Below, one piece after another: positions 646 through 32,808 of a DNA stretch of 64,000 bases. The stretch lies in NCBI RefSeq assembly GCF_004116335.1, contig NZ_PDKN01000007.1:1-64000 (forward strand), read 5' to 3'. The notes below the pieces were generated by a model. The model made no database searches. It was not told where the DNA came from and was given only the letters and a program-made list of their open reading frames with translations. The position numbers and the translations under genes are program-made. Within the stretch, counting starts at the first letter, position 1; each line of letters opens with the position of its first letter. Source of the stretch: Candidatus Marinarcus aquaticus (GTDB lineage Bacteria > Campylobacterota > Campylobacteria > Campylobacterales > Arcobacteraceae).

Positions 646-654
646 GTCGTTAAA

Positions 655-727: not shown

Positions 728-754
728 AGTTCAAGCACTTTATTTTCTTTTATG

Positions 755-785
755 AAGCCCAAGGGTTATCCACCTTGGGCTTTTA
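755..785 (+). terminator. Rho-independent terminator of the flagellin gene
   Basis: A perfect 10-bp stem, AAGCCCAAGG (755-764) with CCTTGGGCTT (773-782), encloses an 8-base loop. The stem runs into TTTTATT. It lies about 110 bases after the flagellin stop and ahead of the Maf promoter. Confidence 0.85.
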
Positions 786-806
786 TTCCCCTTTTCACAG
801 GGATTT

Positions 807-812
807 TATAAT
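807..812 (+). promoter_or_regulatory. Candidate -10 box for the maf/legionaminic operon
   Basis: A perfect TATAAT lies 33 bases before the maf ATG and just after the flagellin terminator. No convincing -35 is seen, as is usual for sigma-70 promoters in Campylobacterota. No clear Shine-Dalgarno sequence precedes the ATG at 846. Confidence 0.5.
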
Positions 813-845
813 CTTTATTTAATGGATTTATGACTATACTATTAC

Positions 846-2720: not shown

Positions 2721-2722
2721 AG

Positions 2723-4111: not shown

Positions 4112-4124
4112 ATAGGAGCCATGG

Positions 4125-5315: not shown

Positions 5316-5316
5316 T

Positions 5317-8026: not shown

Positions 8027-8036
8027 AGGAAAACGC

Positions 8037-8708: not shown

Positions 8709-9871
8709 CTCAAAAAAGAAAAATATGTGTCATCACCGGTACACGTGCAGAGTACGGTTTACTCTACTGGTTGCTCAAAGAGATTGAAAAAAGTTCAACT
8801 TTACAACTGCAACTACTTGTTACGGGTATGCATCTCTCTTCTGAATTTGGCTTGACGTATCAAGTCATTGAAGAGGAGTTTCATATTGATAAAAAAATAG
8901 AGATGCCACTTCTAGGTGATTCTGCAGTGGAGATTAATCGCTCTATGGGAATTGCACAAGTGGGTTTTGCACAAGCCTATGAAGAACTTAAGCCCGACAT
9001 GATTGTTCTCTTAGGTGATCGTTATGAGATATTCACAGCCGCAAATGCTGCGATGATTTCACGTATTCCGATTGCACATATTCATGGAGGAGAGTTAACA
9101 GAAGGACTCATTGATGAAGCGATTCGCCACAGTATTACTAAGATGAGTCACCTTCACTTTACATCAACCCAAACCTACCAAAAACGCGTCATTCAATTAG
9201 GAGAACAACCCGACCATGTTTTTAATGTAGGTGCTTTGGGTATTGAGAGTATTAAAAAGCTTCAACTGCTTGACAAAGAGGCGTTTGAAGAATCCATTAA
9301 TTTTAAATTGAATGACAAAAATCTTCTGGTGACCTTTCATCCTGTTACTTTAGAAAATGCTACAGCACAAGAGCAGTTTCAAGCTTTGCTGAATACTCTT
9401 GATACACTTAACCATACCAATATCATCTTTACCAAAGCCAACAGTGATACCAATGGACGCATTATCAATACCATGATTGATGCCTATGTAAACAAGAACT
9501 ATCAACACTCTATCGCCTTTGAATCACTGGGACAACTAAGATACTTAAGCGCTTTACAGTTTGTGGATGGAGTTGTGGGAAACAGCTCAAGTGGTTTACT
9601 TGAAGCTCCCAGCTTTCAAATAGGTACGATCAATATTGGTGACCGTCAAAAAGGGCGAATAAAAGCAGACTCTGTTATTGATTGTCTTCCTGAAACAAAA
9701 AGTATTTTATCTGCTTTACATAAATTGTACAGCGATGCCTTTATAAAACAACTGCCAAGCGTTACAAACCCTTATGACAATGGTAACAGCAGTCAGAAAA
9801 TTGTAAATGTTTTAGAGAGTGTCTCATTAGAAAATATTTTAAAAAAGTCCTTTTATGATTTAGAGGTGTAA
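8705..9871 (+). CDS. legG: Hydrolysing NDP-sugar 2-epimerase (LegG/NeuC family)
   Basis: The 388-residue enzyme removes the nucleotide and inverts C2, giving the trideoxymannose substrate of LegI. Family motifs are CVITGTRAEYGLL at the N-terminus, MIVLLGDRYEIF, HIHGGELTEGLIDEAIRHS, and NSSSGLLEAPSF near residue 300. It is a distant paralogue of the NeuC encoded at 37705-38835. The difference, together with the operon's dehydratase and aminotransferase, argues for a diacetamido-trideoxy substrate rather than UDP-GlcNAc. Confidence 0.92.
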   Translation: MTQKRKICVITGTRAEYGLLYWLLKEIEKSSTLQLQLLVTGMHLSSEFGLTYQVIEEEFHIDKKIEMPLLGDSAVEINRSMGIAQVGFAQAYEELKPDMIVLLGDRYEIFTAANAAMISRIPIAHIHGGELTEGLIDEAIRHSITKMSHLHFTSTQTYQKRVIQLGEQPDHVFNVGALGIESIKKLQLLDKEAFEESINFKLNDKNLLVTFHPVTLENATAQEQFQALLNTLDTLNHTNIIFTKANSDTNGRIINTMIDAYVNKNYQHSIAFESLGQLRYLSALQFVDGVVGNSSSGLLEAPSFQIGTINIGDRQKGRIKADSVIDCLPETKSILSALHKLYSDAFIKQLPSVTNPYDNGNSSQKIVNVLESVSLENILKKSFYDLEV

Positions 9872-9872
9872 T

Positions 9873-10754
9873 ATGAAAATAGTTTTTATAGGTACCGTTG
9901 ATTTTTCACTTCAAACATTGGAAAAACTGATAGATTTAAATGCCAATATCGTTGGTGTTTGTACCAAAGAATCTTCTTCTTTTAACAGTGACTTTGCCAA
10001 CTTACAACCCTTGTGTCAGAAGCACCATATCCCTTGTCACTGCACAGAAGATGTTAATACACCTCAAAGTATTGCATGGATTAAATCACTCCAGCCCGAC
10101 ATTGTTTTTTGTTTTGGTTGGTCAAACCTGATTAAAAAAGAGCTGTTAGAACTCCCTGCTTTAGGCGTATTAGGATTTCATCCTACAAAACTGCCTTTAA
10201 ACAGAGGACGCCACCCAATTATTTGGAGTTTGGCTCTTGGTCTAAAACAATCTGCAACCACCTTCTTTTTTATGGATGAAGGTGCTGATAGTGGAGATAT
10301 TCTCTCTCAAAAAGAGTTTGACATCAGTGACCACGATGATGCATACTCTTTGTATAAAAAAATAACGCTTACAGCCCTTTCTCAGATTGAAGAGTTTCTA
10401 CCCCAACTGGAACAAAACAGCTATGTAAAAACAGCACAAGACCATAGCAAAGCAAACTATTGGCGAAAAAGAGGAAAAAACGATGGGAAAATTGATTTTA
10501 GGATGAACAGTCTAAGTATCTATAACCTTGTAAGAGCCCTTTCTAAGCCTTATGTTGGGGCTCACCTTGTCTATAACAATACTGATATTCCTGTTTGGAA
10601 AGTGGAAATCTTAGATTATAAAGAACCACGCCTTGAACCAGGTAAAGTGTTATCAGTAGAAAACAATTGTATAATAGTTAAAACCAATGATGGTGCGGTC
10701 AAAATTCTTGAACATGAATTCACGACTCTGCCAAAAATAGGAGAGTATCTATGA
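9873..10754 (+). CDS. Formyltransferase family protein (sugar N-formyltransferase candidate)
   Basis: The 293-residue protein has the formyltransferase fold. The N-10-formyl-THF site loop is GFHPTKLPLNRGRHP, with catalytic His103; Asp139 lies in DEGADSGDIL. The catalytic Asn of the usual N-x-H triad is replaced by Gly101, a visible deviation that may be normal for this subfamily. A C-terminal domain follows from about residue 200, as in methionyl-tRNA formyltransferase and sugar formyltransferases. Its place among legionaminic acid genes and next to a deacetylase argues for N-formylation of an amino sugar rather than of Met-tRNA. It overlaps the deacetylase by 4 bases. Confidence 0.85.
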   Translation: MKIVFIGTVDFSLQTLEKLIDLNANIVGVCTKESSSFNSDFANLQPLCQKHHIPCHCTEDVNTPQSIAWIKSLQPDIVFCFGWSNLIKKELLELPALGVLGFHPTKLPLNRGRHPIIWSLALGLKQSATTFFFMDEGADSGDILSQKEFDISDHDDAYSLYKKITLTALSQIEEFLPQLEQNSYVKTAQDHSKANYWRKRGKNDGKIDFRMNSLSIYNLVRALSKPYVGAHLVYNNTDIPVWKVEILDYKEPRLEPGKVLSVENNCIIVKTNDGAVKILEHEFTTLPKIGEYL

Positions 10755-11407
10755 GCAATAAAGTTTTAGTCATTGCCCCTCATCCTGATGATGAAACTTT
10801 AGGTTGTGGAGGGACACTGTTAAAACATCAAGCCCAAGGTGATGAGATAAACTGGCTTATTTGCACCACCATGGATGAATCACACCCCTATTTTACAACG
10901 CGAGAACAAGAGCTTAAAGAGGTTGCTTCACTTTATAAATTTACATCTGTGCACCATCTCAAACTTAAAACAGCTCAAGCAGATGAGTACACCATGAGCG
11001 AACTTATATCATCGATTTCCAAGATTATAAACACGGTTAAACCCAATATTTTATATCTGCCTTTTTGCCATGATGTTCACAGTGATCACAGAAAACTTTT
11101 TGAGGCAGCTTACAGTTGCACCAAAACATTTCGTTACCCATTTATTCAAAAAATTTATATGATGGAAATTTTAAGTGAAACAGAGTTCTTTCCTGTATCA
11201 TCTTCCCCTTTTACACCTAATGTCTTTGTTGATATCACACACTATATGCAGCAAAAAATTGAGATTATGAATCTGTATAAAAGTGAAATCCAAGCACACC
11301 CCTTTCCAAGAAGCATTGAAAATATTCAAGCTTTAGCAACCTTACGTGGTGCTACTGCAGGATGCCAATATGCGGAGAGTTTTATGTTGCTTAAGGAGAT
11401 TCAATGA
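10751..11407 (+). CDS. PIG-L family N-deacetylase
   Basis: The 218-residue zinc-dependent deacetylase has the signature HPDDE at residues 11-15 (VIAPHPDDETLGCGG) and a second metal motif, HSDH, with His110 and His113. Relatives remove N-acetyl groups from GlcNAc-type sugars (GlcNAc-PI, bacillithiol and mycothiol precursors). Coupled to the formyltransferase by a 4-base overlap, it could expose an amine that is then formylated. The substrate is inferred from context only. Confidence 0.88.
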   Translation: MSNKVLVIAPHPDDETLGCGGTLLKHQAQGDEINWLICTTMDESHPYFTTREQELKEVASLYKFTSVHHLKLKTAQADEYTMSELISSISKIINTVKPNILYLPFCHDVHSDHRKLFEAAYSCTKTFRYPFIQKIYMMEILSETEFFPVSSSPFTPNVFVDITHYMQQKIEIMNLYKSEIQAHPFPRSIENIQALATLRGATAGCQYAESFMLLKEIQ

Positions 11408-12456
11408 AAGAGATTCAAGACATTACCGTTTCACCTCTTTCAACGATTAAAGAGGCACTTTCTATTATAGACAGTGGTGCCATGAAAATTGCCATTGTCA
11501 TTGATAAAAATAAAAAAGTCATTGGAACCATCACAGATGGAGATATTAGGCGTGGTCTTTTAAATGGATTGAACTTGGACTCAGCTATTGAGAGCATCTA
11601 TTTTAAAAACCCTACGTTGGCCAATATAAACGAATCTAAAGAGGCCATCATACAAAAAGCCATCCATAAAAAACTCTATCAAATCCCCATTGTAAACGAC
11701 CAAGGGCATTTGGTGGATATTGAAGATTTAGCCACACTTTTAAAAATAACCACGAGAAAAAACCGAGTTGTTCTCATGGCAGGAGGATTAGGTACAAGAC
11801 TGCATCCTTTAACTCAAAAAATGCCTAAACCACTTTTAAAAGTGGGAAATAAACCTATTTTAGAGACCATCATTGAAAACTTTTCCAAATATGGGTTTGT
11901 GAATATCACCATCAGTGTGAACTATAAAGCAGAGATGATCAAAGAGTATTTTGGTGATGGTTCTAAATTTGGTGTCTGCATTGATTATATTGAAGAGAGC
12001 CAACGATTAGGAACGGCTGGTGCACTGAGTCTACTTCCATTTCAACCCAAAGAGCCTTTTTTTGTGATGAATGCCGATTTGCTGACCAATGTCAACTTCA
12101 CACATCTTTTAGATTTTCATATACATGAACATGCCACTGCAACAATGTGTGTAAGAGAGTATGATTATCAAATCCCTTATGGGGTGATACAAACACAAAA
12201 CAGCAGTATCACTTCAATTAAAGAAAAGCCTATTGAGACTTTTTTTGTCAATGCGGGTATCTATGTCTTATCTCCAGAGGTGTTGCACTATATTCCTAAA
12301 AACAGTTTTTATGACATGCCAACTTTGTTTGAACAGCTCATTTCAAAAGAGCATAAAGCCATCTCTTTTCCTCTGCATGAATATTGGCTCGATATTGGTC
12401 GAATGAGTGATTTTGAAGAGGCTCAAAATGAGTACTTTAAGGTCTTTGATGAATAA
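11404..12456 (+). CDS. ptmE: PtmE-like nucleotidyltransferase with CBS domains
   Basis: The 350-residue protein has two CBS motifs at about residues 1-115 (VIGTITDGDIRRGLL) and a sugar-phosphate nucleotidyltransferase domain from about 121, with GGLGTR at 127-132 and KMPKPLL after it. The same architecture is found in C. jejuni PtmE (Cj1329), which makes GDP-glucosamine to supply GDP-GlcNAc for the GDP-based legionaminic acid route. By analogy this gene feeds the dehydratase. It overlaps the deacetylase by 4 bases, and the legF start lies inside its 3' end. Confidence 0.88.
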   Translation: MKEIQDITVSPLSTIKEALSIIDSGAMKIAIVIDKNKKVIGTITDGDIRRGLLNGLNLDSAIESIYFKNPTLANINESKEAIIQKAIHKKLYQIPIVNDQGHLVDIEDLATLLKITTRKNRVVLMAGGLGTRLHPLTQKMPKPLLKVGNKPILETIIENFSKYGFVNITISVNYKAEMIKEYFGDGSKFGVCIDYIEESQRLGTAGALSLLPFQPKEPFFVMNADLLTNVNFTHLLDFHIHEHATATMCVREYDYQIPYGVIQTQNSSITSIKEKPIETFFVNAGIYVLSPEVLHYIPKNSFYDMPTLFEQLISKEHKAISFPLHEYWLDIGRMSDFEEAQNEYFKVFDE

Positions 12457-13135
12457 ATCAAACTCATTTCTAGCCATTATCCCTGCACGAGCTGGAAGTA
12501 AACGTTTACCTAATAAAAATCGTTTATCTTTGTGTGGGAAACCTTTGATTACGTGGAGTATTGAAGCAGCAAAACAAAGTCAGTATCTTAGCCATATTGT
12601 GGTTTCAAGTGACGATGAAGCCATACTTACTCTTGCAAGTCAATTAGAAGTAGAAGCTTTACAACGTCCGAGTGAGTTTGCCCAAGACAGCTCTTCAACA
12701 GTTGATGTGATTAAACATGTATTACAATATCATGCTAACTATGAGTATATCGTTCTTTTACAACCCACCAGTCCACTTCGAACTTCACAACACATAGACC
12801 AAGCCATTGAACTTTTACATGAAAAAAATGCGGATGCTATTATCAGTGTAAGTCCCACTGCGCACTCTCCACTTTGGTGCAATACGCTGCCAAAAGACAA
12901 CAGTATGAGCCATTTTTTAAGCGATGAGTTAAAAACAAAAAGAAGCCAAGACCTCCCAACATACTACCAACTCAATGGAGCAATTTATATCTGTAAAACA
13001 AGCGCATTACTCAAAGAGAACTCTCTGTTTTTAAAAGAGAATATTTTTGCTTTTATCATGGATAAACAAAGTTCAGTTGATATTGATGATGAGTTGGATT
13101 TTCTGTTTGCACAAACTATTCTAGAGAAGAAATAA
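12449..13135 (+). CDS. legF: CMP-legionaminic acid synthetase
   Basis: The 228-residue acylneuraminate cytidylyltransferase activates legionaminic acid with CTP for use by Maf. The N-terminal motif AIIPARAGSKRLPNKN and LLQPTSPLRT are characteristic. I chose ATG 12449 (MNKSNSFLAII): AAGG lies 6 bases upstream and the family starts just before AIIPAR; a longer frame from 12407 overlaps ptmE by 50 bases. It is the last gene of the + operon. Only 11 bases separate its stop from that of the convergent DUF354 gene. Confidence 0.92.
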   Translation: MNKSNSFLAIIPARAGSKRLPNKNRLSLCGKPLITWSIEAAKQSQYLSHIVVSSDDEAILTLASQLEVEALQRPSEFAQDSSSTVDVIKHVLQYHANYEYIVLLQPTSPLRTSQHIDQAIELLHEKNADAIISVSPTAHSPLWCNTLPKDNSMSHFLSDELKTKRSQDLPTYYQLNGAIYICKTSALLKENSLFLKENIFAFIMDKQSSVDIDDELDFLFAQTILEKK

Positions 13136-13146
13136 GCTGTTTTATT

Positions 13147-14208
13147 TTAACTTAAAATCTCATCAACTAACTTATTTAAATGTAATTGCATTGTATTTAA
13201 ACAATTATTATGTTGTTGCTTTTGACTATTTAACAATGCATACACACTCTTTAACAAATCCTCTTTTGAATTAACCCATACCATTAATCCATTGTCAATT
13301 TGAAATTTATCATAATGACATATAAAACTTCTTGTAGAGATTGTTGGTGTATTAAAAAAACATGCTTCGGTATTTAAAGTTCCTCCACCACCAATAAATA
13401 AGTCTGCATACGCTAAAAGGTGTTGAATGACTATTTTTTCTTCTAATACCGTTGCAAAAGGGAACTCCTCTTTTAAATATGCACTTTCATACCTTGGAAT
13501 AATAATAATATTGGCATTTGTTGTATTATAAATCTCTTCTAATGCTTCATATAAAATAGGGTATTTTTTATCTACGTAAGAGGATTTATACTCCTCTTCT
13601 CTGATAATAATCATCTTTTTTGATAAATCAAGATTATAGGATTTCAGAACCTTTTTAACATATTCAAAATCTGGCTCAAAATGTTTCAGCCATATGACAG
13701 GGTCAATGAAATCATAATCAAAGATTTGTTCTTCATCCAATGAAAATCTTAAAAAAATTTCATCAGGTACTACAAAAGGTTTAAAAACTTTACTTGATAA
13801 AGGCAGTGTTAATCTTGCTTGAGGAAGTGCTTTTTTAAAGTTGGTATTGTAATCAGATAAAGGAATATCATAGAAATTAACAACAGGTATACCCAAACCA
13901 AAAGCCACACGATTGGCATCAACGGAACATAAACACACAAGTCTGTCAATATCATAAAGAGTTACAAACTCCATCAAAGCTTTTTGCCTCTCAATTGATG
14001 CATGCAGTTTATCTTTTAAGCAAGCTCCACCAAACTCTCCTCTATTTATAAATTCCATATTATAAAGTCTTAACAGTTCCACGACTTCAGAGTAATCTTT
14101 TCCTTCTCTTGCGGTGATTAAAACTTTTCTTCCTCTTTTTTCAATCTCTTTAATCATAGGAATAAAAAATAAAACAGATTTTGGAGTTACTAAATCAAAC
14201 CAAATCAT
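13147..14208 (-). CDS. DUF354-type GT-B fold protein
   Basis: The 353-residue protein begins MIWFDLVTPKSVLFF and contains VLITAREGKDY, a central IIIPRYESAYL and LFIGGGGTLNTEACFFNTP. These fit the DUF354 family, which resembles LpxB/MurG-like GT-B glycosyltransferases. The activity is unknown. It is the last gene of the long leftward run and follows the nucleotidyltransferase of the predicted MeOPN cassette by 2 bases, so a role in using or transferring that group is possible. AAGG upstream supports the ATG start. Confidence 0.75.
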   Translation of the reverse strand: MIWFDLVTPKSVLFFIPMIKEIEKRGRKVLITAREGKDYSEVVELLRLYNMEFINRGEFGGACLKDKLHASIERQKALMEFVTLYDIDRLVCLCSVDANRVAFGLGIPVVNFYDIPLSDYNTNFKKALPQARLTLPLSSKVFKPFVVPDEIFLRFSLDEEQIFDYDFIDPVIWLKHFEPDFEYVKKVLKSYNLDLSKKMIIIREEEYKSSYVDKKYPILYEALEEIYNTTNANIIIIPRYESAYLKEEFPFATVLEEKIVIQHLLAYADLFIGGGGTLNTEACFFNTPTISTRSFICHYDKFQIDNGLMVWVNSKEDLLKSVYALLNSQKQQHNNCLNTMQLHLNKLVDEILS

Positions 14209-14210
14209 TA

Positions 14211-14954
14211 TTAAACCTTATTTATCATTTTAATCTCTAAATCGCTTACGCAATCTACTTCAAGCCACTTCCCATCAATCCAAACAGGATTAACTTCATG
14301 TAAGTTATCAATAATTTCTTGTATAAAAGTTGTCATATACATATTATCAAACTCATTTTGTGATAATTTTTTTCGTAAAACTTCATCATAAAAGTGAATT
14401 ATCTTGGGCAAAACTTTCTTTGAAATTTTAATTAAACCAATATATTGACCATCAATCTCACTATAATCTCTTGGCTTTTTACCCAGTTCAATAATTTTAT
14501 TATCTTCAACTTTTAAAGTTTCAGCATCAAGAAGAGGGTTATCCATTCGCTGGAGCCACAATTGTTTCCAACTTTTATCAACAACAACACTGATATCAGA
14601 AGGTGCATCCATCAATTTTTTTAATACTTGTTTATCATAGATAATATCTGAATAAGAAATTATAAGATCATCATTCATCCACTCTTTTGCACAAAAAAGG
14701 GAATAGGTCATATTGGTTGAATCATACTTGATATTTTCAAAATAAGTGATTTGCTCTTTGTTAAGGTACTCTTTCAGAACATTGGATTTATACCCTGTTA
14801 CAATCGATGTTTTATCTATGCCACACTCTTTGATACAATTTAAAATTGTTCTTATTATCGGTACAGAATTATATGCAACCATACACTTTGGTTGATTATT
14901 GGTAAGAGGTCGTAAACGAGTTCCTTGACCTGCCGCTAAAATTATTACTTTCAT
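14211..14954 (-). CDS. CTP:phosphoglutamine cytidylyltransferase-like nucleotidyltransferase (Cj1416-like)
   Basis: The 247-residue NTP-transferase fold protein has the signature MKVIILAAGQGTRLRPLT at its N-terminus and PKCMVAYNSVPII after it. Isolated members are often called LicC-like phosphocholine cytidylyltransferases. Here it sits beside a PEP-synthase-like kinase, a class I amidotransferase and a CysC-like kinase. This is the gene set in which C. jejuni Cj1416 couples CTP to L-glutamine phosphate to form CDP-L-glutamine. The substrate is inferred from that context. I chose ATG 14954 over a TTG at 14966. Confidence 0.82.
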   Translation of the reverse strand: MKVIILAAGQGTRLRPLTNNQPKCMVAYNSVPIIRTILNCIKECGIDKTSIVTGYKSNVLKEYLNKEQITYFENIKYDSTNMTYSLFCAKEWMNDDLIISYSDIIYDKQVLKKLMDAPSDISVVVDKSWKQLWLQRMDNPLLDAETLKVEDNKIIELGKKPRDYSEIDGQYIGLIKISKKVLPKIIHFYDEVLRKKLSQNEFDNMYMTTFIQEIIDNLHEVNPVWIDGKWLEVDCVSDLEIKMINKV

Positions 14955-14958
14955 ATTT

Positions 14959-15585
14959 TTATCCAAAAAAATTTTTTATTACATTGAGTTGTATTTGATT
15001 AAATGGCTTTTCTCGTTCAGGATGCCACATCTGAGCAAATATTTTATACTGCCGATGTTCAATAGCTTTGATTATGCCATCTTTAGTAGATGCACTACAT
15101 AATAAAGACGATACTAACTCTTTTATACCATAGTTATGATAAGAATTGACATTATCTAGCTTTATTAAATCTCCATAATACTGTGATTTTGGATTAACAG
15201 ATAATTGATGTTGGGTACCAATTTGGTTTTCGACGTCCATAAAACTACTATTAAAATAGTGAGCAATAATTTGAAGCCCACGACATATCCCGAACACAGG
15301 AATACTATGTTCAATACAATAACTAATAAGCTGTTTTTCAAATTCATCTCTTTTATTAGAGAGTTCATTGGGATTACATACGTTAAGATCATTACCTCCA
15401 GTTAATAACACACCCTCAATATTTAACTCCTTAAAATAGCTTTTAAAGTTCACTTCATACGGTAGTGCTATTGGTAAAAAACCACATTCATACATAAATT
15501 TACAATAGTTAATATCCAAAGCTTCTCGAACTTCATCATCTCCTGTATGGTCTATTAATCGTTGAGTTATTGCTATTTTTTTCAT
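14959..15585 (-). CDS. Gamma-glutamyl-CDP-amidate hydrolase-like class I amidotransferase (Cj1417-like)
   Basis: The 208-residue peptidase C26/class I glutamine amidotransferase fold shows an apparent triad of Cys101 (FGICRGLQ), His188 and Glu190 (MWHPERE). In isolation it would be named gamma-glutamyl-GABA hydrolase. In C. jejuni the homologue Cj1417 cleaves CDP-L-glutamine to cytidine diphosphoramidate and glutamate. The match of all four neighbours to that pathway makes this the better call. It overlaps the glutamine kinase gene by 4 bases. Confidence 0.84.
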   Translation of the reverse strand: MKKIAITQRLIDHTGDDEVREALDINYCKFMYECGFLPIALPYEVNFKSYFKELNIEGVLLTGGNDLNVCNPNELSNKRDEFEKQLISYCIEHSIPVFGICRGLQIIAHYFNSSFMDVENQIGTQHQLSVNPKSQYYGDLIKLDNVNSYHNYGIKELVSSLLCSASTKDGIIKAIEHRQYKIFAQMWHPEREKPFNQIQLNVIKNFFG

Positions 15586-17903
15586 GATATAATCTTAACT
15601 TGTTTATTTGCAGCATCGATGGTTATCATATTTGCTTTTTTATACTTTAAAAACATATTTTCACCACAGCCAATTACAGCAGGAATTTTCAATTCTGCAC
15701 ACCTTATTGCCATATGAGAGTTCGCCCCACCATAACACGTAATCAAACCTGAGATATTTTTAGAAAAAAGATAATCATACCCTGGATCAGCAGACTTTAT
15801 ACAAACTATTTTTCCTTCTACATTAATCTCATTAATGTTCTCTATGTCAGCTATATTTGAAGTAACCCTTTCGAGTGTTACAAAATTTGCTTCTTCAACT
15901 CCTACAGAAAAACTATAGATATCATCTTCATGAGTAATTAAACTAGGCAGCTTAATAGCTTGTGTATATTTATAAAACTCTTTATTTTTCTCAATATCTT
16001 TTTTAAGAATATCTTTAACATCACGATGATCTAATGTTGCATAAAGATTTTTAAATTTTTGAATATCTAAATATGCAAGGTCATCTCTGCTCACATTTAC
16101 TTTACAGCCAAACTCTTCTATATAGATCAATATTTTACTCAAATGTTTTGTAAATATAAACTTTGCATACTCTCGACCCTGAATCGATTCTTTAATAAAT
16201 GTTATTAATCCATCATAATTACATTTAAGTCCATTTTCAATGATAAGTTGCTCTATTTTTTCTTTTTGAGCTTTTGAAAATTCAAAAGCTTCTTGCTTAC
16301 TTTCACATCCAAAACCTGAAAAGTATTCATCATATGCTTCATCATATCTTTTTGAACAGATATCATATGTACCTGGCCTTAAGTGCCCATAATCCTCTAA
16401 AAACTTTTTTTTCGATAAATATTTTTTATCTTCAGATATTTTTTTTGATATGGTTTCGATACTGTTTAAAAATTGATATTGTTCTTGAGATGTTATAATC
16501 TTCTCTTCTACAAATGAGTTTAAGAATTGTACAGCAATAAACGCTGCTCTTGCAACTCCAGCAAATGGGAGTGTTCCATATCGTTTACAATCCTCAATAA
16601 GCCAATATATCTTCTCTATTATAGGTAAATTTGATTCTACTATATCCTTATACTTCTCTTTTAAAAGTTCAATTTTATTTAAATCTTTTTTATACAAACC
16701 ATTTTTTATATCTATAATATTATTAGTAAGCTCTAAAAGTTCAAACTCAATTCTTTTTATTTCATTATCACTGAAACCGTGTTGTTGTAGTTTTTTTAAT
16801 TTCTTATCAATTCCAAGATAATAACAAGAAAATACAATTTTAAATTCAACTTTATCATGATTATTTGAATTTTTAGAGAGTTCTTCAAGATAAAATTCAA
16901 CTAATTTAGCTGCTATACTGTTATGCAAGTTTTCTGGAATAAAAGAGTTAAAAGAGACCCTTACATCTATGAAAGGTACTCCTAAAAAAGAGACCAATAA
17001 AGGAAAAGATCTCAAGTTCCTATAACCATAATTATCTCTTTGATATGCCCATATTTCATCTGTAACTATCTCTTTATATAATGAGAGGGCTAACCTTTTG
17101 GGCTTTATACCTATAATCTCAGCAGGATTCCAATCAGGCATAACACCAAATATACTTCGACTTCCTAGTAACTTTGGATGTTGTGCATTTAATTTCTTTA
17201 TTTTTTTATATAGTTTTTCTAAACTCTTTTCTAAAGCTATCTCACTTAAATCAAGCTTATTATTTGTAACAATCGTTCTTACTTGTAAAATATAAATTAC
17301 TTCATCTACTATAGCAAACTCAATATCTAAAAATTGATTCTCAAAAACTTCTTCACACTCTTTTGAAGCTTTAATAAGTTGATTTATTTTGTGATTTTTG
17401 TCTTGTTTTGAATTTTTAAAGACAATTCTTGTTTTTAAATTCTCACCTTCACCACCTGTCACACTATTTGTACTTCCGCTCTCATCATAATTAATAATAT
17501 AATAAGGAGCCAATGTATCTATGTCTGCAGTAAAAATTACTCCACTCATAGATACATTTTTAAGCATGGGTTGAACAAACACTTCATCTTTATTCTTCAC
17601 AACATCACCATATGATTGTATAACCATGTCAATAGCTTTTTCTAACTCATTTTTCCTAAGTTGTACATTTTGTATACTTTCAAAACCACCTGCATGAGAT
17701 GTGATACCATTATCTTCATTTGAAGATGAAGAACGAACGATGATTTCAGCATCAAAAGACTCTAAGCATTTATTTAAAATGCTTTGCTTGTTCTTTAAAT
17801 AATCCTTTACATAAAACCTACTCAAAGGCAATATTTTAGCTGATAGAATTTTGTTCGATAAATATTCTAATGTTTTTGCTTTTGATAACGATGATAGTTT
17901 CAT
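15582..17903 (-). CDS. L-glutamine kinase-like PEP-synthase family enzyme (Cj1418-like)
   Basis: The 773-residue protein has a PPDK/PEP-synthase N-terminal ATP-grasp-like part (IIVRSSSSNEDN, then SHAGGFESI) and a C-terminal phosphohistidine swivelling domain (YGGANSHMAIRCAELKIPA, His about 730). The PEP/pyruvate-binding TIM barrel of true PEP synthase is missing. This is the layout of C. jejuni Cj1418, which phosphorylates the amide nitrogen of L-glutamine as the first step of MeOPN synthesis. I chose ATG 17903, forming an ATGA overlap with the upstream methyltransferase stop, over an upstream start at 17921. Confidence 0.86.
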   Translation of the reverse strand: MKLSSLSKAKTLEYLSNKILSAKILPLSRFYVKDYLKNKQSILNKCLESFDAEIIVRSSSSNEDNGITSHAGGFESIQNVQLRKNELEKAIDMVIQSYGDVVKNKDEVFVQPMLKNVSMSGVIFTADIDTLAPYYIINYDESGSTNSVTGGEGENLKTRIVFKNSKQDKNHKINQLIKASKECEEVFENQFLDIEFAIVDEVIYILQVRTIVTNNKLDLSEIALEKSLEKLYKKIKKLNAQHPKLLGSRSIFGVMPDWNPAEIIGIKPKRLALSLYKEIVTDEIWAYQRDNYGYRNLRSFPLLVSFLGVPFIDVRVSFNSFIPENLHNSIAAKLVEFYLEELSKNSNNHDKVEFKIVFSCYYLGIDKKLKKLQQHGFSDNEIKRIEFELLELTNNIIDIKNGLYKKDLNKIELLKEKYKDIVESNLPIIEKIYWLIEDCKRYGTLPFAGVARAAFIAVQFLNSFVEEKIITSQEQYQFLNSIETISKKISEDKKYLSKKKFLEDYGHLRPGTYDICSKRYDEAYDEYFSGFGCESKQEAFEFSKAQKEKIEQLIIENGLKCNYDGLITFIKESIQGREYAKFIFTKHLSKILIYIEEFGCKVNVSRDDLAYLDIQKFKNLYATLDHRDVKDILKKDIEKNKEFYKYTQAIKLPSLITHEDDIYSFSVGVEEANFVTLERVTSNIADIENINEINVEGKIVCIKSADPGYDYLFSKNISGLITCYGGANSHMAIRCAELKIPAVIGCGENMFLKYKKANMITIDAANKQVKIIS

Positions 17904-18667
17904 ACTTTTTTTGCAGTCCATGCTCTGATTTTATAAGGTACTTCAATGATCTCTAAATCTTTTATTTCTTTTTCAATCATGGCAATGATTTCATTCCACC
18001 TTTGAACACCTGCTTGAACTTGTATATCATTTACTGAATGCCATGCACCCATATATCTCTCTTTACTCATCAATTCCATATGATCGGTTTCCATAAAAAA
18101 ACAGTTCTTAAAATCTCCTGTAGAAACTAATACGTACTCCCACTCTTGTGTACTTTGAATTCCAGATGAGACTCGTTTTAATTCTGGAACAATTTTTTTA
18201 ATATTTTCTTCAATATTTGTATGGAACTCAGATATTTTAATATTTCTAGGATTCCACATTGCTGTAAAATACCCTTCACTTTTAAGAATACGTGCAAACT
18301 CTGGTAATGATTTTTGTGGATCAGTCCAATGAAAAGAAGAAGCCATAATAACCCAATCAGCAATATTATCTTTTATTCCTGTCTCTTCACCACTTCCTTT
18401 TAACCACTGCACATTTTCAAATTTATTTGTATATTTAATCCCTTCTTCTCGCATGGCATCATTAGGTTCAACTGCTATTACAGATAACCCCATTTCAAGT
18501 AACATTTTTGTTAACTTACCTGTTCCTGCTCCAACCTCAACGATTTGAAAAGTTTCATTTTTTGTCTTATACTCCATTATCTTTAACAAGTTTTCTAAAA
18601 GTAATTGACTGTATGCTGGTCGATTAATATACTGCTTGGCTAATTTTGTAAAATCTCCTTGCTTCAT
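17900..18667 (-). CDS. SAM-dependent methyltransferase of the MeOPN cassette (Cj1419/Cj1420-like)
   Basis: The 255-residue class I methyltransferase has SAM-binding motif I VEVGAGTGKLTK, motif II VIAVEPNDAMRE and FHWTDPQKSLPEFARILK. It lies between the CysC-like kinase and the glutamine kinase, as Cj1419/Cj1420 lie beside Cj1418 in C. jejuni, where they are thought to O-methylate the phosphoramidate. C. jejuni has two such genes and only one is adjacent here. The start is ATG 18667 (TGATG overlap with the upstream stop) or the GTG just before it at 18670. Confidence 0.82.
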   Translation of the reverse strand: MKQGDFTKLAKQYINRPAYSQLLLENLLKIMEYKTKNETFQIVEVGAGTGKLTKMLLEMGLSVIAVEPNDAMREEGIKYTNKFENVQWLKGSGEETGIKDNIADWVIMASSFHWTDPQKSLPEFARILKSEGYFTAMWNPRNIKISEFHTNIEENIKKIVPELKRVSSGIQSTQEWEYVLVSTGDFKNCFFMETDHMELMSKERYMGAWHSVNDIQVQAGVQRWNEIIAMIEKEIKDLEIIEVPYKIRAWTAKKV

Positions 18668-19191
18668 CACTTCTCTCCAATTAAATTTAAAATTTGTTCT
18701 ACTTTTTCATTAAGGTGATTGTTTTCACTGTTTTCAATGATTAATTCACAATTATGAGGTCTGTCATACGGTAAATTTACACCTACAACATCATCCCTTT
18801 GACCTTTTAAAGCTTTTGAATATAACCCTTTTTGATCTCTTTTTATCAACTCTTCAATCGTACACTCAATAAAAATCTCAAAATATTCTTCAATCTCTTT
18901 TCTATTAAGGTCATGTATCTCTTTATATAAAGACATCGTGGCACACACGACATTGATATCTTGAGAGATTAAGAATTTACACATTTTATGAATTCTTTTT
19001 GCATTTTCCAATCTATCTTTTGGAGTATGTCCCAAATCATTCCCTAACACTTCGCGAAAAATGTCTCCATCTAAAAAAACTGTATTGTCATACTTTTTCT
19101 TTAATTTCTCATATACTGCTTTTCCAATAGTTGTTTTTCCACTTCCACTTAGACCGGTTACCCAAATGAGTTTTCCTTTTTGTTGCATCAT
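18667..19191 (-). CDS. Cytidine diphosphoramidate kinase-like CysC homologue (Cj1415-like)
   Basis: The 174-residue P-loop kinase of the adenylylsulfate kinase family has Walker A GLSGSGKTT at residues 13-21 and LDGDIFREVL after it. There are no sulfate assimilation genes (cysD, cysN, cysH) nearby. In C. jejuni the CysC homologue Cj1415 phosphorylates the ribose of cytidine diphosphoramidate, and all its partners are adjacent here, so that role is preferred. I chose ATG 19191, giving an ATGA overlap with the upstream stop; a TTG at 19203 is possible. Confidence 0.84.
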   Translation of the reverse strand: MMQQKGKLIWVTGLSGSGKTTIGKAVYEKLKKKYDNTVFLDGDIFREVLGNDLGHTPKDRLENAKRIHKMCKFLISQDINVVCATMSLYKEIHDLNRKEIEEYFEIFIECTIEELIKRDQKGLYSKALKGQRDDVVGVNLPYDRPHNCELIIENSENNHLNEKVEQILNLIGEK

Positions 19192-20318
19192 GTGTAAACC
19201 CAATTTGGATGCTTCTTATGCGTTAAAATATACTCTAGATTTTCTAAAAGGTACTCTTCACTGCATCCTATATTAAAAATAGCTTCTTTTTTATATTTTT
19301 CAATTTTATTGGCATATGCTTCTTGGTTTGTTTTGATTGTATCAATTACTTTTAAAATATCACTTGTTTTTTTAGCATGAAACCCTAACTTCTCAACAGG
19401 TCTTCTTTGGGGATCAAATACTTTGACTCCTGGCGCAAAAAATATTGATGGCTTCAATGTGGTTAATGAGTAAGTAAATGCTGTAGTTGAAATGTCAGTT
19501 ATCATACATAACGATCGGGCATAATCTTCTAAAAGAGATTTATTTGAAAACTCAACTCTTTGATTGTCTTGAAATTTTGTTTTTAAAACATCATAAGAGG
19601 GGTGAGTTAAGCTTGTAGGGTGCGCTCGATAAATAATACTATAAGAAGTTTGTTCCAATAAAAACTCAATCAAATGTTGATCAAAGCCAACGTTATAGGC
19701 CAAACTCTCTTCAGTTGCAGTTTGAGGAGACTTTACAGTGGGTGCAATTAAAATACTCTTTGTTTCTTTATAATTGTTTTTAACAGATTCATACGATTTA
19801 ATCGTTGCATCCAGTTTTAAATACCCCCCTTTAATAAAACATCGATTCGTACAATCATAATTGTTTTTTTCATTGACCATAGATGAAATTGCACTCTGCG
19901 TTGCAAAAAAAAGATATTTATATCCACTCTCTGGGACAACACCTGTAAATGCATCATGAGACAAATAGAGACCTACAGCATTTTGAGAGATCAAATTCTT
20001 ACTTGTAATATTAGTGGAAATAATTAAATCTATGCCCTTTAAGTTTAAAGAATCTAAAAAATATTCATTTTGAAAAAATGGAATTTCTAAAGTAATTGCT
20101 TTTTTATCAAGCATTGCATCTTTACAATGAGGAGACTTAAGGTTAATCACACACCAACCGAGTTCTTTGAACTTTTCATGTAAATTTCCAAAAAGTGATG
20201 TGTAAGTTGCAAACATAGAAAACATTACCACACATTTTTTATTTTTTTCTACTTTAGAATAAAAAAGTTGTTTCCATTTTTCTACTTGACGCTTATATAT
20301 GTCTATCTCAGGCTGCAT
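19188..20318 (-). CDS. CDP-glycerol glycerophosphotransferase (TagB/TagF)-like transferase
   Basis: The 376-residue protein has a weak match by eye to the C-terminal GT-B domain of TagB/TagF polymerases: YRAHPTSLTHP around residue 225 and MITDISTTAFTYSLT around 265 resemble their conserved His-Pro and Asp-Ser-Ser segments. Those enzymes use CDP-activated phospho-donors. It lies directly upstream of, and overlaps, the CysC-like kinase gene of the MeOPN cassette, whose product is also CDP-linked, so it is a candidate MeOPN transferase. That is inference. It overlaps the upstream gene by 11 bases. Confidence 0.65.
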   Translation of the reverse strand: MQPEIDIYKRQVEKWKQLFYSKVEKNKKCVVMFSMFATYTSLFGNLHEKFKELGWCVINLKSPHCKDAMLDKKAITLEIPFFQNEYFLDSLNLKGIDLIISTNITSKNLISQNAVGLYLSHDAFTGVVPESGYKYLFFATQSAISSMVNEKNNYDCTNRCFIKGGYLKLDATIKSYESVKNNYKETKSILIAPTVKSPQTATEESLAYNVGFDQHLIEFLLEQTSYSIIYRAHPTSLTHPSYDVLKTKFQDNQRVEFSNKSLLEDYARSLCMITDISTTAFTYSLTTLKPSIFFAPGVKVFDPQRRPVEKLGFHAKKTSDILKVIDTIKTNQEAYANKIEKYKKEAIFNIGCSEEYLLENLEYILTHKKHPNWVYT

Positions 20319-20700
20319 TCAAAACCCTATTTAAATCAAATAAACTATTAACAATATGCAGGTTCTTCTCTTCATGGTTTTGATAACAAGGGTGATACAA
20401 AATTGTTAAATACTGCTCACTGGTTTGAGCAATATTTTTATCATTAACAATAAAAATATCAATCTTATTTAATAAAGGAATTACCTCCTCATCTGTTATA
20501 AACTCAATTTTAGAATCAGCAACGGTTTTAACTACTGCTAAAATATCTTTATTAAAAGAGTGAAAAGTAATCTGAATATCACTATTATTAATTGTTTCTA
20601 ATAATTGAATAGAAAATCCTACTGCTGAATTAAACATTGAATTTTCATACTCTATATCTTTTAATTCTTCAAAATTAATACAAAAAAACAATCTCTTCAT
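20308..20700 (-). CDS. Hypothetical protein, 130 residues
   Basis: No family is recognised. The protein begins MKRLFFCINFEELKDIEYENS and has beta/alpha alternation (DIQITFHSF, IDIFIVNDK), suggesting a small Rossmann-like or half-GT domain. I chose ATG 20700 because a strong GGGGAGGGG lies just upstream; an ATG at 20727 would add nine residues. It overlaps the TagF-like gene by 11 bases and is the first gene after a 100-base gap in an otherwise tight run. Confidence 0.6.
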   Translation of the reverse strand: MKRLFFCINFEELKDIEYENSMFNSAVGFSIQLLETINNSDIQITFHSFNKDILAVVKTVADSKIEFITDEEVIPLLNKIDIFIVNDKNIAQTSEQYLTILYHPCYQNHEEKNLHIVNSLFDLNRVLNAA

Positions 20701-20723
20701 TTCCCCTCCCCTTATGTACTGTA

Positions 20724-20825
20724 TCATTTATTTACTATATCATTTATTTTTTTATAATCCTCTTCACCCATGGGGTAAGCAATGACTTCATCTAACTCAC
20801 TCACATAAAGACTTTTTGATACCAT
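20724..20825 (-). CDS. Possible 33-residue small ORF overlapping the asnB end
   Basis: A short frame reads MVSKSLYVSELDEVIAYPMG, then EEDYKKINDIVNK and stop. It starts inside the last 25 bases of asnB in another frame and fills the gap before the hypothetical gene at 20700. Its composition is protein-like. No clear ribosome binding site is seen. It may be a real small protein, a remnant of a lost gene, or chance. Confidence 0.25.
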   Translation of the reverse strand: MVSKSLYVSELDEVIAYPMGEEDYKKINDIVNK

Positions 20826-22591
20826 CTGCAAAATAAATATAAAGACCAAATGTGCTGTTTAAATCGTCCTTCTTTCCCTTCTAAATATAAATATTTTATA
20901 AATTCACTATGAAATAACCCACTCTCATTGGCTACTTTTAACATTAATGTTAAGATTTCTTTATCATATTCTGCGTATAACCATTCAATAAAAGGAGAGC
21001 TAAAGCCTTTTTTTCTTCTATTTACAATAGAAGTAGGTATATATTTTGAAGCAATTTTCTTTAAAAGATATTTATTGGTATCTCCTGCCCGAAGGTGCCC
21101 AGGTAAAGACAACATATAATCCACTAACCTATAATCTAAAAAAGGAGCTCTTAATTCTAAAGAGTTTGCCATGGACATTCGATCAATTTTACTCATTAAT
21201 ACTTCAGCAATCCAGATTTTAAGATCAACTTTTGACATCCATAAATAAGGATCATTTTCATATGGATGTTTTTCTCTTACATCAAAGCAACTTTCAGTTT
21301 GTAATTTATCCAATTGCATTTTTGTAAAAGTCTCCCCTCCACTATAAAAGATTTGTTCATTGTTACACACTCGATTTAAATATTCCCAACTTCTAGAAAG
21401 ATTTTGGTTATTGTCTAAATAGTTTTTCAGAAGAGATTTACTGTTGCTTGATAGCTCATTATTCATAGAATAAAATTGTGCCATATGAAAATAATTATCA
21501 TACCCTAAAAATATCTCATCACTCCCTTCTCCACTTAATGACGTTTTAATGCCTTTCTCATGAATCATTTTACTGATTAAATACGTAGGAAATGATGCGG
21601 AGTCTCCCATTGGTTCATCAAAATGTGTTAAAACAGTTTCCATGATATTAATATAATCTTTTCTACCTATTCTCAATTCATGATGGATAGAACCAATATG
21701 TTGTGATGCTTCTTTAGCCTCATTCAGTTCATCATAATGTAAATATTCATCATAACCAATTGAAAAGGTATTGATTTTTTTTCCTGAAACTTTTGCATAA
21801 ATCGCACTTACCAATGAAGAGTCTATACCTCCTGATAATAATGAAGCCACTTCTTCATCTCCAACAAGCCGCTTCTGCACTGAATCAAATAATAACTCTT
21901 CAATATTTAATAGTGCTTCTTTTTCACTGATATTCAGAAGTTCTTTTTCTCCTGCTTTATAATATCTTTTAATGGTCAGATTATTGTTTTTATAAATTCC
22001 ATATGTTCCAGCTTCTAATTTGTAAATACCTTCAAAAAAGGTATATGGAGGGAGGGATGATTGAAAAGAAAAAAATTGTTGCATTGCAATTTTATTAAGA
22101 GAAGGTGTGGTTTGTAACAATGCAAGAATGGCTTTGATTTCACTTGATACCATAAATCCTTTAAGTGAAGAGTAGTAAAGGGGTTTTTTCCCAAAACGAT
22201 CTCTTGCTATAAAAAACTCTTCTTTGTTAGAGTCGTATATACAAAAAGCAAACATTCCGTTAAGATGATCCAACATTTTATGTCCAAACTTTTTATACAA
22301 GTGAAGCAACACCTCTGTATCACTTTTCGTTTGACAGTTAAAAGAGAATTTTTTCTTTAGATCTTTAAAGTTATAAATTTCTCCATTAAATACAATTGTA
22401 TACTCTTCAAATTTCATTGGTTGATTAGAGCGCTCTTCAAGATCAATAATTGCCAGTCTTTTGTGCCCCATTTTTACACTGTTATTTATCCATACATCGG
22501 TTGCATCTGGACCTCTGTGATGTAATGTATCTAGAGCTTTTCTAAAGTTTTTTTCACTGCTCTTTCCTACTTCTAAAAGTATTCCACACAT
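20801..22591 (-). CDS. asnB: Asparagine synthase (glutamine-hydrolysing) family amidotransferase
   Basis: The 596-residue protein starts MCGILLEVG, giving Cys2 as the class II glutaminase nucleophile, with HRGPDATDVW and FNGEIYNF in the N-terminal domain. The synthetase domain has the ATP-binding loop LLSGGIDSSLVSAIYA. It can make asparagine from aspartate, but AsnB paralogues in surface polysaccharide loci commonly amidate sugar carboxylates such as uronic acids. Its place among glycosyltransferases and methyltransferases makes the second role plausible. Which it does cannot be told from sequence. Confidence 0.9.
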   Translation of the reverse strand: MCGILLEVGKSSEKNFRKALDTLHHRGPDATDVWINNSVKMGHKRLAIIDLEERSNQPMKFEEYTIVFNGEIYNFKDLKKKFSFNCQTKSDTEVLLHLYKKFGHKMLDHLNGMFAFCIYDSNKEEFFIARDRFGKKPLYYSSLKGFMVSSEIKAILALLQTTPSLNKIAMQQFFSFQSSLPPYTFFEGIYKLEAGTYGIYKNNNLTIKRYYKAGEKELLNISEKEALLNIEELLFDSVQKRLVGDEEVASLLSGGIDSSLVSAIYAKVSGKKINTFSIGYDEYLHYDELNEAKEASQHIGSIHHELRIGRKDYINIMETVLTHFDEPMGDSASFPTYLISKMIHEKGIKTSLSGEGSDEIFLGYDNYFHMAQFYSMNNELSSNSKSLLKNYLDNNQNLSRSWEYLNRVCNNEQIFYSGGETFTKMQLDKLQTESCFDVREKHPYENDPYLWMSKVDLKIWIAEVLMSKIDRMSMANSLELRAPFLDYRLVDYMLSLPGHLRAGDTNKYLLKKIASKYIPTSIVNRRKKGFSSPFIEWLYAEYDKEILTLMLKVANESGLFHSEFIKYLYLEGKEGRFKQHIWSLYLFCRWYQKVFM

Positions 22592-22604
22592 GTTTTATTC
22601 ACCT

Positions 22605-23705
22605 TCAATTTAAAATAATATTTTCCCATTTTCTGAACGTTTGAGAAAGAGAAAACTCATTTATACAACGTTGATTTAACTCTTTAACTTTCTTATTTGG
22701 TTGATTCAATACATCCACTATTTTTTGAGCCAATACTTCAATATCGTTATCAATAAATTCTACATTTTCATAACCAGCAAACTCTCTCCACGATGGTATA
22801 AACTTAAAAGAGATTATTTTACAGTTTAAACTTAATGCTTCTAAGAAAGTATTGGGTAGTCCTTCATACACTGAAGGAAAAAGAAATGCTTCACAATTGG
22901 CCATATAACAATAAGGATTTTGTTCATAACCTTTAAAAATCACTCTTTGCTCTAATTTCAAACGCTCTGCCTCTTGCTGAATATGTAGTTTATCTTTCCC
23001 ATCTCCAATAAAAACTAATTTGGTTTTCATTTTTGAGGCAATAAGACTATACGCATACAACGCCTCTTTTTGTCCTTTTTGTCGAGTGTCAAACCTTCCG
23101 ACATGCAACAAAAAAGGTTCTTTAATATCACACTCGACCAGTGAAAGCTCTTTGATTTTATCTATATCTATTCCATTGGGAATCACTTTTGAGATAATAT
23201 TATATTCTTTTAACTCTTCTGCAACACCTTGACTCACAGATATTACTTTTATGTTCTTATATAATTTTTTAATATTGGACACATAAAAACTGTAAGGCAT
23301 CAAATGTATCATTTGATTTTTATACATATTTCCAATACTCACACGTGAAGAAACAATCACATTTGAATTCTCTTGTAAAGCAGTTAATGTGCAAATATTA
23401 TTATAATCTTCAAAAGAGATAATCTTATCAAATAATGTACTTTTAAAAAAAGTTTTTATTCCTTTAACTCTAAATTTAAAAAGTTTTTCTCCAGTTTGTT
23501 CTGCTGACAGTTCTTTTTTAGAAAAATATATTTGCGGCAGATAAAAAAGTTCTATATTTTTATCCAAAGTATACATCACTTCTTTTGTTTCAAATAAAAG
23601 AATAGACACTCTACATTTTTGCACAAAATAATTGGCTAATAATGCTATATTTTTTTGTACTCCACCTAAAGTAAGATTATGAGTTATAAAAAGAATAGAT
23701 TTCAA
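22605..23705 (-). CDS. Glycosyltransferase family 4 protein
   Basis: The 366-residue GT-B protein has an N-terminal acceptor domain starting SILFITHNLTLGGVQKNI, and donor-domain motifs LLHVGRFDTRQKG and FLFPSVYEGLPNTFLEALS with the retaining-GT E-x7-E pattern. The start is TTG at 23705, overlapping the upstream stop (TTGA), with AGGA 7 bases before it. It probably transfers a hexose or amino sugar onto a lipid-linked or protein-linked glycan in the cytoplasm. Donor and acceptor are unknown. Confidence 0.88.
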   Translation of the reverse strand: MKSILFITHNLTLGGVQKNIALLANYFVQKCRVSILLFETKEVMYTLDKNIELFYLPQIYFSKKELSAEQTGEKLFKFRVKGIKTFFKSTLFDKIISFEDYNNICTLTALQENSNVIVSSRVSIGNMYKNQMIHLMPYSFYVSNIKKLYKNIKVISVSQGVAEELKEYNIISKVIPNGIDIDKIKELSLVECDIKEPFLLHVGRFDTRQKGQKEALYAYSLIASKMKTKLVFIGDGKDKLHIQQEAERLKLEQRVIFKGYEQNPYCYMANCEAFLFPSVYEGLPNTFLEALSLNCKIISFKFIPSWREFAGYENVEFIDNDIEVLAQKIVDVLNQPNKKVKELNQRCINEFSLSQTFRKWENIILN

Positions 23706-24466
23706 TCTCTATTCCTGCAAATAACAAAAAAATTAGGAGAAAAAGATTGAGCTTTGAAGGTATCTAAAAATAGTCCAATGATATTATTGAATACAAAAAT
23801 AGGTAAAATGATTGGCAAACAGACAATATTACGAAAACACCTAAATTTACTCGTTCTATCCCAAATATAGCCATTTATAATTGATATTAATGTTGTTCCT
23901 AAATATCCTTGATAATGAAACTCTATAACTTCAAATCCATTCTTTTCTAATAAAGTTTTTAACCCAAATTCACTAAACCGAAAAAAATCATAAGGTTGTG
24001 CATGTGCTTGATATATAAAAGGAACAGAAAGAAGTAATATGCCCTCTTTTTTGAGAACTCTTTTGGCCTCTATTATAACATCTTGATAATCAAAAACATG
24101 CTCCAATACTTGAGTTAATATGACGGTATCCATTGTTTCAGAAGCAAAAGGCAAAGAAGTTGCTTCTGCATTAACAAATTGAACATCTGATGCTTTAAAC
24201 ATCTCTTTATGGGTTAAACTTGAATCACTTATAATATACTCTGTGCATTTTTCTTCTAAATATTTTTTATATGGTGCTTGTCCTGCGCCTATATCCAAAC
24301 ATTTTCCCTTTACATAATGACTCGCTTTTAAAATCGATTTTTTCATTTGACGCCAATTTAAAAAAAATCCATCGGTCACATATACATCTGGTTGATGTAT
24401 ACTTCCTGTTAAAATTGGAATAAGTTTATAAGAAAAATAATGACACAATCGTTCCATCATCTGCAT
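23702..24466 (-). CDS. Class I SAM-dependent methyltransferase
   Basis: The 254-residue protein has SAM-binding motif I CLDIGAGQAPYKKYL, then TVILTQVLEHVFDY and RVLKKEGILLLSVPF, the type 11 methyltransferase pattern. A hydrophobic stretch near the C-terminus (IVCLPIILPIFVFNNIIGLF) may associate with the membrane. AGAGG upstream suits the ATG at 24460 slightly better than the one at 24466. Substrate unknown; one of several methyltransferases in this run. Confidence 0.82.
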   Translation of the reverse strand: MQMMERLCHYFSYKLIPILTGSIHQPDVYVTDGFFLNWRQMKKSILKASHYVKGKCLDIGAGQAPYKKYLEEKCTEYIISDSSLTHKEMFKASDVQFVNAEATSLPFASETMDTVILTQVLEHVFDYQDVIIEAKRVLKKEGILLLSVPFIYQAHAQPYDFFRFSEFGLKTLLEKNGFEVIEFHYQGYLGTTLISIINGYIWDRTSKFRCFRNIVCLPIILPIFVFNNIIGLFLDTFKAQSFSPNFFVICRNRD

Positions 24467-26529: not shown

Positions 26530-26531
26530 AT

Positions 26532-27464: not shown

Positions 27465-27471
27465 GTAACCC

Positions 27472-28500: not shown

Positions 28501-28501
28501 A

Positions 28502-32807: not shown

Positions 32808-32808
32808 T

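Follow-up and report, generated by a model that had tools for sequence, protein, structure and literature searches.

O-methyl phosphoramidate (MeOPN) is a rare phosphorus-nitrogen decoration of sugars in the Campylobacter jejuni capsule. In this organism, Cj1415–Cj1418 convert glutamine, ATP and CTP into cytidine diphosphate (CDP)-phosphoramidate 3′-phosphate, and deletion of either Cj1421 or Cj1422 abolishes the MeOPN modification (PMC11800397). MeOPN has been reported from several Campylobacter species (PMC3907429), and a review from 2022 terms the glutamine kinase C. jejuni-specific (PMC9561416). Here, we analyzed the first 64,000 nucleotides of contig NZ_PDKN01000007.1 of Candidatus Marinarcus aquaticus (hereafter, the window), in which five open reading frames (ORFs) on the minus strand, at 14211–19203, appear to form a phosphoramidate-donor cassette of the Cj1415–1418 kind plus one methyltransferase (MTase). 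We consider this assignment about 85% probable; the figure covers the donor cassette alone, and we infer methylation, the identity of the transferase and the acceptor separately. The donor steps in C. jejuni were shown by others, and the present work adds homology, synteny and predicted folds. On this basis, the activated form of the decoration is very probably also made by a free-living relative of Campylobacter.

Donor enzymes and their distribution

The five ORFs overlap their neighbors by 4–22 bases, in agreement with the original prediction, an earlier reading of the bare sequence that had proposed five consecutive overlapping genes. The central ORF (15582–17903) encodes the putative L-glutamine kinase (Cj1418 type); it can open at 17921, but its homologues begin at the ATG at 17903. 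Pfam recognizes a PPDK_N ATP-binding part and the PEP-utilizers mobile domain, with the phosphohistidine at residue 730 as numbered from the 17903 start. The protein matches the glutamine kinase model NF004508 over its full length with 1000 bits (cut-off 501; the C. jejuni protein scores 1173 bits) and is 49.6% identical to its C. jejuni homologue over 762 residues, strain GP013 (locus L028) serving as the reference for all pairwise identities given here. Models of phosphoenolpyruvate (PEP) synthases give it at most 65 bits against cut-offs of several hundred, and a Pfam scan of the window protein found no PEP-barrel domain, as had been predicted. Judged by its sequence, this protein is a glutamine-kinase homologue and not a PEP synthase, and the original prediction survives the very comparison it had named as able to overturn it, namely whether the closest homologues are PEP synthases.

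The other three donor enzymes point in the same direction. The probable CysC-like cytidine diphosphoramidate 3′-kinase (Cj1415 type, APS_kinase; 18667–19203, with a TTG start and an ATG at 19191) reaches 218 bits with NF004041 (cut-off 127), the model that also scores best for the C. jejuni protein (291 bits), and is 52% identical to it. The class I glutamine amidotransferase (GATase; 14959–15585), a probable gamma-glutamyl-CDP-amidate hydrolase of the Cj1417 type with Pfam Peptidase_C26/GATase, is 46% identical to the C. jejuni hydrolase and carries the triad Cys101/His188/Glu190 exactly where it had been placed. Its best NCBIfam model is NF045546 (193 bits, E 4e-57), with which the C. jejuni protein scores 331 bits; that the window protein falls short of the equivalog cut-off of 250 bits counts against the assignment. 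The best NCBIfam model is thus shared with C. jejuni for three donor enzymes (kinase, hydrolase and CysC-like kinase). The putative CTP:phosphoglutamine cytidylyltransferase (Cj1416 type; 14211–14966, with a TTG start and an ATG at 14954) belongs to NTP_transf_3/NTP_transferase and is 50% identical to its C. jejuni homologue; no specific NCBIfam model exists for this nucleotidyltransferase (NTase). These Pfam assignments, including Methyltransf_11 for the remaining gene, agree with the families proposed earlier. Of the claimed match to Cj1415–Cj1419, the four donor enzymes hold at 46–52% identity, but the methyltransferase turned out to be of the Cj1420 rather than the Cj1419 type.

By analogy with C. 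jejuni, the kinase would use glutamine and ATP to form N-phosphoglutamine, which the nucleotidyltransferase would convert with CTP to CDP-glutamine. Hydrolysis by the GATase would then free glutamate and leave CDP-phosphoramidate, and the CysC-like kinase would phosphorylate the cytidine at its 3′ position. The methyltransferase would add the O-methyl group at a stage that the proposal does not fix. Finally, a transferase would pass the (methyl) phosphoramidate to a hydroxyl of a surface glycan, releasing cytidine 3′,5′-bisphosphate.

A scan of genomes based on the kinase yielded at least 564 encoded relatives, of which 80, covering about 17 phylum-level groups, were compared (L numbers denote the compared cassette loci and G numbers the compared genomes). 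Synteny was counted in 59 of these loci, namely those in which 3 kb or more of sequence flanks the kinase on both sides. Near the kinase, these loci hold a CysC-like gene in 46, a methyltransferase in 47, a GATase in 54 and an NTase in 56 cases; all five genes are present in 39/59, and the exact order of the window occurs in 14/59 loci from many phyla. This order is CK-MT-GK-GAT-NT, for CysC-like kinase, methyltransferase, glutamine kinase, GATase and NTase. Since the same genes recur around the kinase across these loci, the grouping is not due to chance. The generic Pfam names would suit a fortuitous neighborhood of ordinary metabolic genes for sulfate activation, PEP synthesis, GABA-peptide hydrolysis and sugar nucleotidyl transfer with no joint pathway. 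However, the family models, the missing PEP-barrel match and the synteny kept across phyla leave this explanation next to no probability, and we regard it as refuted. The single-gene readings (PEP synthase, sulfate assimilation, LicC and GABA-peptide hydrolase) are likewise ruled out by model scores and synteny.

In the kinase tree, the window protein falls within a clade of free-living Campylobacterota (L001–L004, L010 and L014; support 99) that is separate from the Campylobacter/Helicobacter clade. Its sister, again with a support of 99, is the kinase of Helicobacteraceae bacterium GLR69 (L010), the nearest one at 71% identity. For comparison, RecA of the window genome is 84–87% identical to that of L001, L003, L004 and L014 and 76% identical to that of Sulfuricurvum, which most likely places the host in the Arcobacteraceae, although some of these records bear other names.

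Compared with the view of a C. jejuni-specific glutamine kinase, the kinase relatives found here are both numerous and spread over many phyla. In public collections, NF004508 is named ‘hypothetical protein’ and NF004041, the CDP-amidate kinase, ‘adenylyl-sulfate kinase’. Because the kinase and the CysC-like enzyme are misnamed in this way, many genomes probably carry the trait unrecognized.

Methyltransferases of the cassette

The S-adenosylmethionine (SAM)-dependent methyltransferase of the window (17900–18670, Methyltransf_11) is 65% identical to the Cj1420-like protein of C. jejuni GP013 and 34% identical to the Cj1419-like one; these are referred to below as types A and B, respectively. 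It is a probable phosphoramidate O-methyltransferase. Against this, the literature assigns no function to Cj1419 or Cj1420, since knockouts of these genes were silent (PMC11800397).

Among 41 loci outside Campylobacter and Helicobacter, 17 contain only type B, 14 only type A, two both and eight none, an exclusivity with a Fisher p of 5.6e-4 that is uncorrected for relatedness; in Campylobacter and Helicobacter, both types occur together in 14/19 loci. Furthermore, two pairs of sister cassettes, window/L010 and L004/L003, differ in that one member has type A at the gene position where the other has type B. In the simplest reading, the Cj1419- and Cj1420-type enzymes do the same job and look redundant, which would explain why single knockouts of either gene are silent. 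In Campylobacter and Helicobacter, the Cj1420-type gene is commonly broken into two separate frames. A G9 tract is carried by CJJ81176_1419, the putative capsular polysaccharide methyltransferase of strain 81-176 (PMC13317227).

The unchanged single knockouts would also fit a cassette whose product is an unmethylated phosphoramidate, with the methyltransferase acting on a sugar. The eight loci lacking such a methyltransferase agree with this, as does the unmethylated phosphoramidate found in the lipopolysaccharides of Xanthomonas and Shewanella (PMC3907429). We nevertheless consider it unlikely, given that one type or the other accompanies the cassette in distant phyla with differing sugars and that, outside Campylobacter and Helicobacter, the presence of one type tends to exclude the other. 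The O-methyl part of the original prediction accordingly gains a Cj1420-type methyltransferase within the cassette, but methylation itself is inferred, as neither Cj1419 nor Cj1420 has a demonstrated role.

Transferases

To place the transfer step, the Cj1421/1422-type protein of C. jejuni was modelled as a 410-residue fragment ending at the contig edge (L028:3-1235, DUF2972), with a predicted local distance difference test score (pLDDT) of 83.8. For this predicted fold, each of the 50 best Foldseek matches and each of the 50 VIA matches listed was a sulfotransferase of the kind that uses 3′-phosphoadenosine 5′-phosphosulfate (PAPS; best VIA Z 12.2, root-mean-square deviation 4.2 over 216 residues). 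When a profile of the family was compared with the sequences of the PDB, the sole matches were heparan sulfate 3-O-sulfotransferases, and these were weak (E 0.56). The model thus predicts that the MeOPN-transferase family of C. jejuni has a sulfotransferase fold. In the literature searched, which took in few subscription papers, no link between Cj1421/1422 and sulfotransferases was found.

Cassette genes in other phyla match sulfotransferase Pfam models directly (PF13469 in 13/19 and PF00685 in 7/19) and reach tyrosine sulfotransferases of the PDB at 4e-19. A sulfotransferase-fold gene lies within 7.5 kb of the cassette in 39 of the 58 loci with adequate flanks; with a profile of higher sensitivity, no fewer than two others (L058 and L009) join them. 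As background, PF13469 occurs at just 10 places in 60 relative genomes, a count that misses divergent members such as that in G022. In addition, 17 loci contain a gene of the inositol-monophosphatase family; in L004, this gene separates the GATase and NTase genes, and its product scores above the curated threshold for CysQ (250 vs 229 bits). The PF00459 gene of the window genome (C8) was rejected as a cassette CysQ, as it is not close to the L004 protein (32% over 97 residues).

These folds and neighborhoods suggest that the whole route mirrors sulfation, with CysC, a PAPS-like donor, a sulfotransferase and CysQ. In such a scheme, the CysC-type kinase would supply the 3′-phosphate that is read by the sulfotransferase fold, and the bisphosphate left over after transfer could be removed by CysQ. 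The literature searched contained no mention of this sulfation parallel, of the interchange of methyltransferases, or of the missing sulfotransferase and X376 described below.

Two further arrangements were seen near other cassettes. Proteins resembling sulfatases or alkaline phosphatases by eye are encoded beside the cassette at L001:1-699, L049:13139-14833 and L056:6963-8699 and may represent a further transferase class. The Helicobacter loci L022, L023 and L024 show tandem, partly broken arrays of Cj1421-like transferases upstream of the cassette.

In the window genome, which is 99.98% complete, two Pfam models and two custom profiles found no sulfotransferase, although a divergent one could escape them; one of these profiles, A2 for the Cj1421/1422 type, found nothing at E 1, with the same limit for a divergent member. 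Upstream of the CysC-like gene, where the sister cassette L010 has a sulfotransferase-fold gene, the window instead carries a gene that we call X376 (19188–20318, minus strand), which overlaps the CysC-like gene by 16 bases. Its AF2 model (pLDDT 81.7) predicts a GT-B protein of the TagF/CDP-glycerophosphotransferase superfamily, with TagF, a CDP-glycerol phosphotransferase, as the top Foldseek match (E 5.8e-13). PF04464 (Glyphos_transf) is matched by 7/10 members of the X376 family (best E 8e-14), and the window protein itself remains below the threshold; its profile found weak, unrelated matches only among PDB sequences. TagF enzymes catalyze an attack of the acceptor on the beta phosphorus of their CDP-linked donor, with release of CMP. 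Because an attack of this type is what phosphoramidate transfer needs, X376 would be suited to this step. Moreover, CDP-phosphoramidate is the sole recognized non-sialic CDP donor expected from the operon. As the phosphoramidate transferase, X376 seems the likeliest single substitute for the sulfotransferase-fold enzyme, a tentative assignment that we hold at somewhat less than even odds.

Several points weigh against it. The sulfotransferase searches may have missed a divergent gene, as PF13469 does in G022. VIA places X376 as near to sugar epimerases (Z 22) as to TagF (19.7), and relatives of X376 are present in genomes without the kinase (G014 and G030), so that a partnership of X376 with the kinase throughout the lineage was rejected. 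Furthermore, the TagF fold has no known need for a 3′-phosphate, which would leave the retained CysC-like kinase unexplained. These observations give an even chance to the alternative that the donor is the same, but that X376 is an ordinary glycosyl-, sialyl- or glycerophosphotransferase and the real transferase is encoded by a divergent sulfotransferase-fold gene elsewhere or by the last gene of the run. The latter (13147–14208, minus strand; PF04007, 162 bits) encodes a DUF354 glycosyltransferase-like protein and directly follows the NTase gene; homologues with 40% identity are encoded in the neighborhood of two Helicobacter cassettes (L034:2017-3108 and L038:2582-3670). The operon also requires a transferase for the NeuA product. 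On the other side are the position of X376 in the slot of the closest kinase relative, the use of CDP-linked phospho donors by its superfamily and the four separate empty sulfotransferase searches.

Some side observations concern these two candidates. In the Helicobacter cassettes L030, L031, L038 and L065, the GATase and NTase genes are separated by an X376-like gene that is preceded by a small ORF. X376 of the window is itself overlapped by a small ORF of 139 residues (20308–20727, minus strand) with no family match in Pfam or NCBIfam; the small X376 partner protein of Helicobacter, f47, was judged unlike it by eye and was dismissed as its kin. The DUF354 homologues of L034 and L038 adjoin an AsnB-like gene.

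Acceptor and comparison with known systems

The donor cassette is part of a run of 26 genes on the minus strand that extends from NeuB to DUF354 (39868–13147). The remainder of the run upstream of the small ORF (20801–39868) encodes AsnB-like, glycosyltransferase, methyltransferase, DegT, formyltransferase, radical SAM, NeuA, NeuC and NeuB proteins. That neuBCA (37034–39868) heads the same run bears out the tie to neuABC proposed earlier, and the adjacent flagellin-glycosylation operon was also correctly recognized: a convergent plus-strand operon (43–13135) with flagellin, Maf, LegB/C/H-like, NeuB, NeuC, PtmE-like and NeuA genes, a possible source of the acceptor, stops about 12 bases from the run. 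The convergent operons hold two nonulosonate sets of NeuB, NeuC and NeuA (7028–13135 and 37034–39868). The flagellin gene (43–645) is truncated by the contig start, so that only the C-terminal part of Flagellin_N is left, and Maf follows directly. Between Maf and the legionaminate-type genes lies a B12-binding radical SAM protein (2723–4111), and a similar domain pair is found near another cassette (L008:5091-7460).

A nonulosonate-containing glycan is the most likely acceptor. No polytopic membrane protein and no exporter is encoded in the 26-gene run, so the glycan would be exported by machinery elsewhere or built on a cytoplasmic protein. Flagellin glycan is a plausible acceptor, because the run without an exporter adjoins the flagellin/Maf operon and because Maf lies near three other cassettes, within 10 kb in L003, L008 and L010; L003 also has three full-length flagellin genes. 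We rate flagellin glycan as only slightly short of an even chance. An acceptor in lipooligosaccharide/O-antigen or capsule comes similarly close to even odds, as the C. jejuni acceptor is capsule and Wzx-like (C3) and Wzy/ligase (C10) genes exist elsewhere in the genome; the lack of a polytopic membrane protein in the run and the flagellin and Maf genes beside this and other cassettes speak against it. The earlier hint that the acceptor may differ from capsule thus gains support, although it stays a possibility.

Combined, phosphoramidate tagging may run parallel to sulfation in many bacteria and be misannotated in most of them; in this lineage, it would act on flagellin glycan instead of a polysaccharide, by means of a TagF-like phosphotransferase that replaced the sulfotransferase-fold enzyme. 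That this joint reading holds in all its parts is doubtful. If the acceptor is flagellin, this would be, to our knowledge, the first case of a protein glycan that carries phosphoramidate. Two questions become testable, namely the fold and donor logic of the MeOPN transferases and the silence of the Cj1419 or Cj1420 knockouts.

In comparison with the MeOPN cassette of C. jejuni (Cj1415–Cj1422), the window shares the four donor enzymes and the Cj1420-type methyltransferase. However, C. jejuni has two methyltransferases instead of one and the order MT-MT-GK-GAT-NT-CK, and its genes are situated in the capsule locus, whereas the window operon has no exporter, lies beside flagellin and Maf genes, and has no Cj1421/1422-type transferase detected in its genome. 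The L010 cassette has the closest kinase, the same gene order and Maf within 10 kb, but differs in its type B methyltransferase and in the sulfotransferase-fold gene at the position of X376. TagF/TarF CDP-glycerol glycerophosphotransferases (PF04464) resemble X376 in predicted fold and, judging by most of its relatives, in family, and they use a CDP-linked donor, as X376 would; they differ in that X376 scores below the PF04464 threshold and that no CDP-glycerol synthase is recognized in the window operon. Sulfate activation and transfer share with the proposed route a CysC-family kinase that makes a 3′-phosphorylated nucleotide donor, transferases of the sulfotransferase fold and, in some cassettes, CysQ; the difference lies in the donor, which carries sulfate on AMP in sulfation and would carry phosphoramidate on CDP here.

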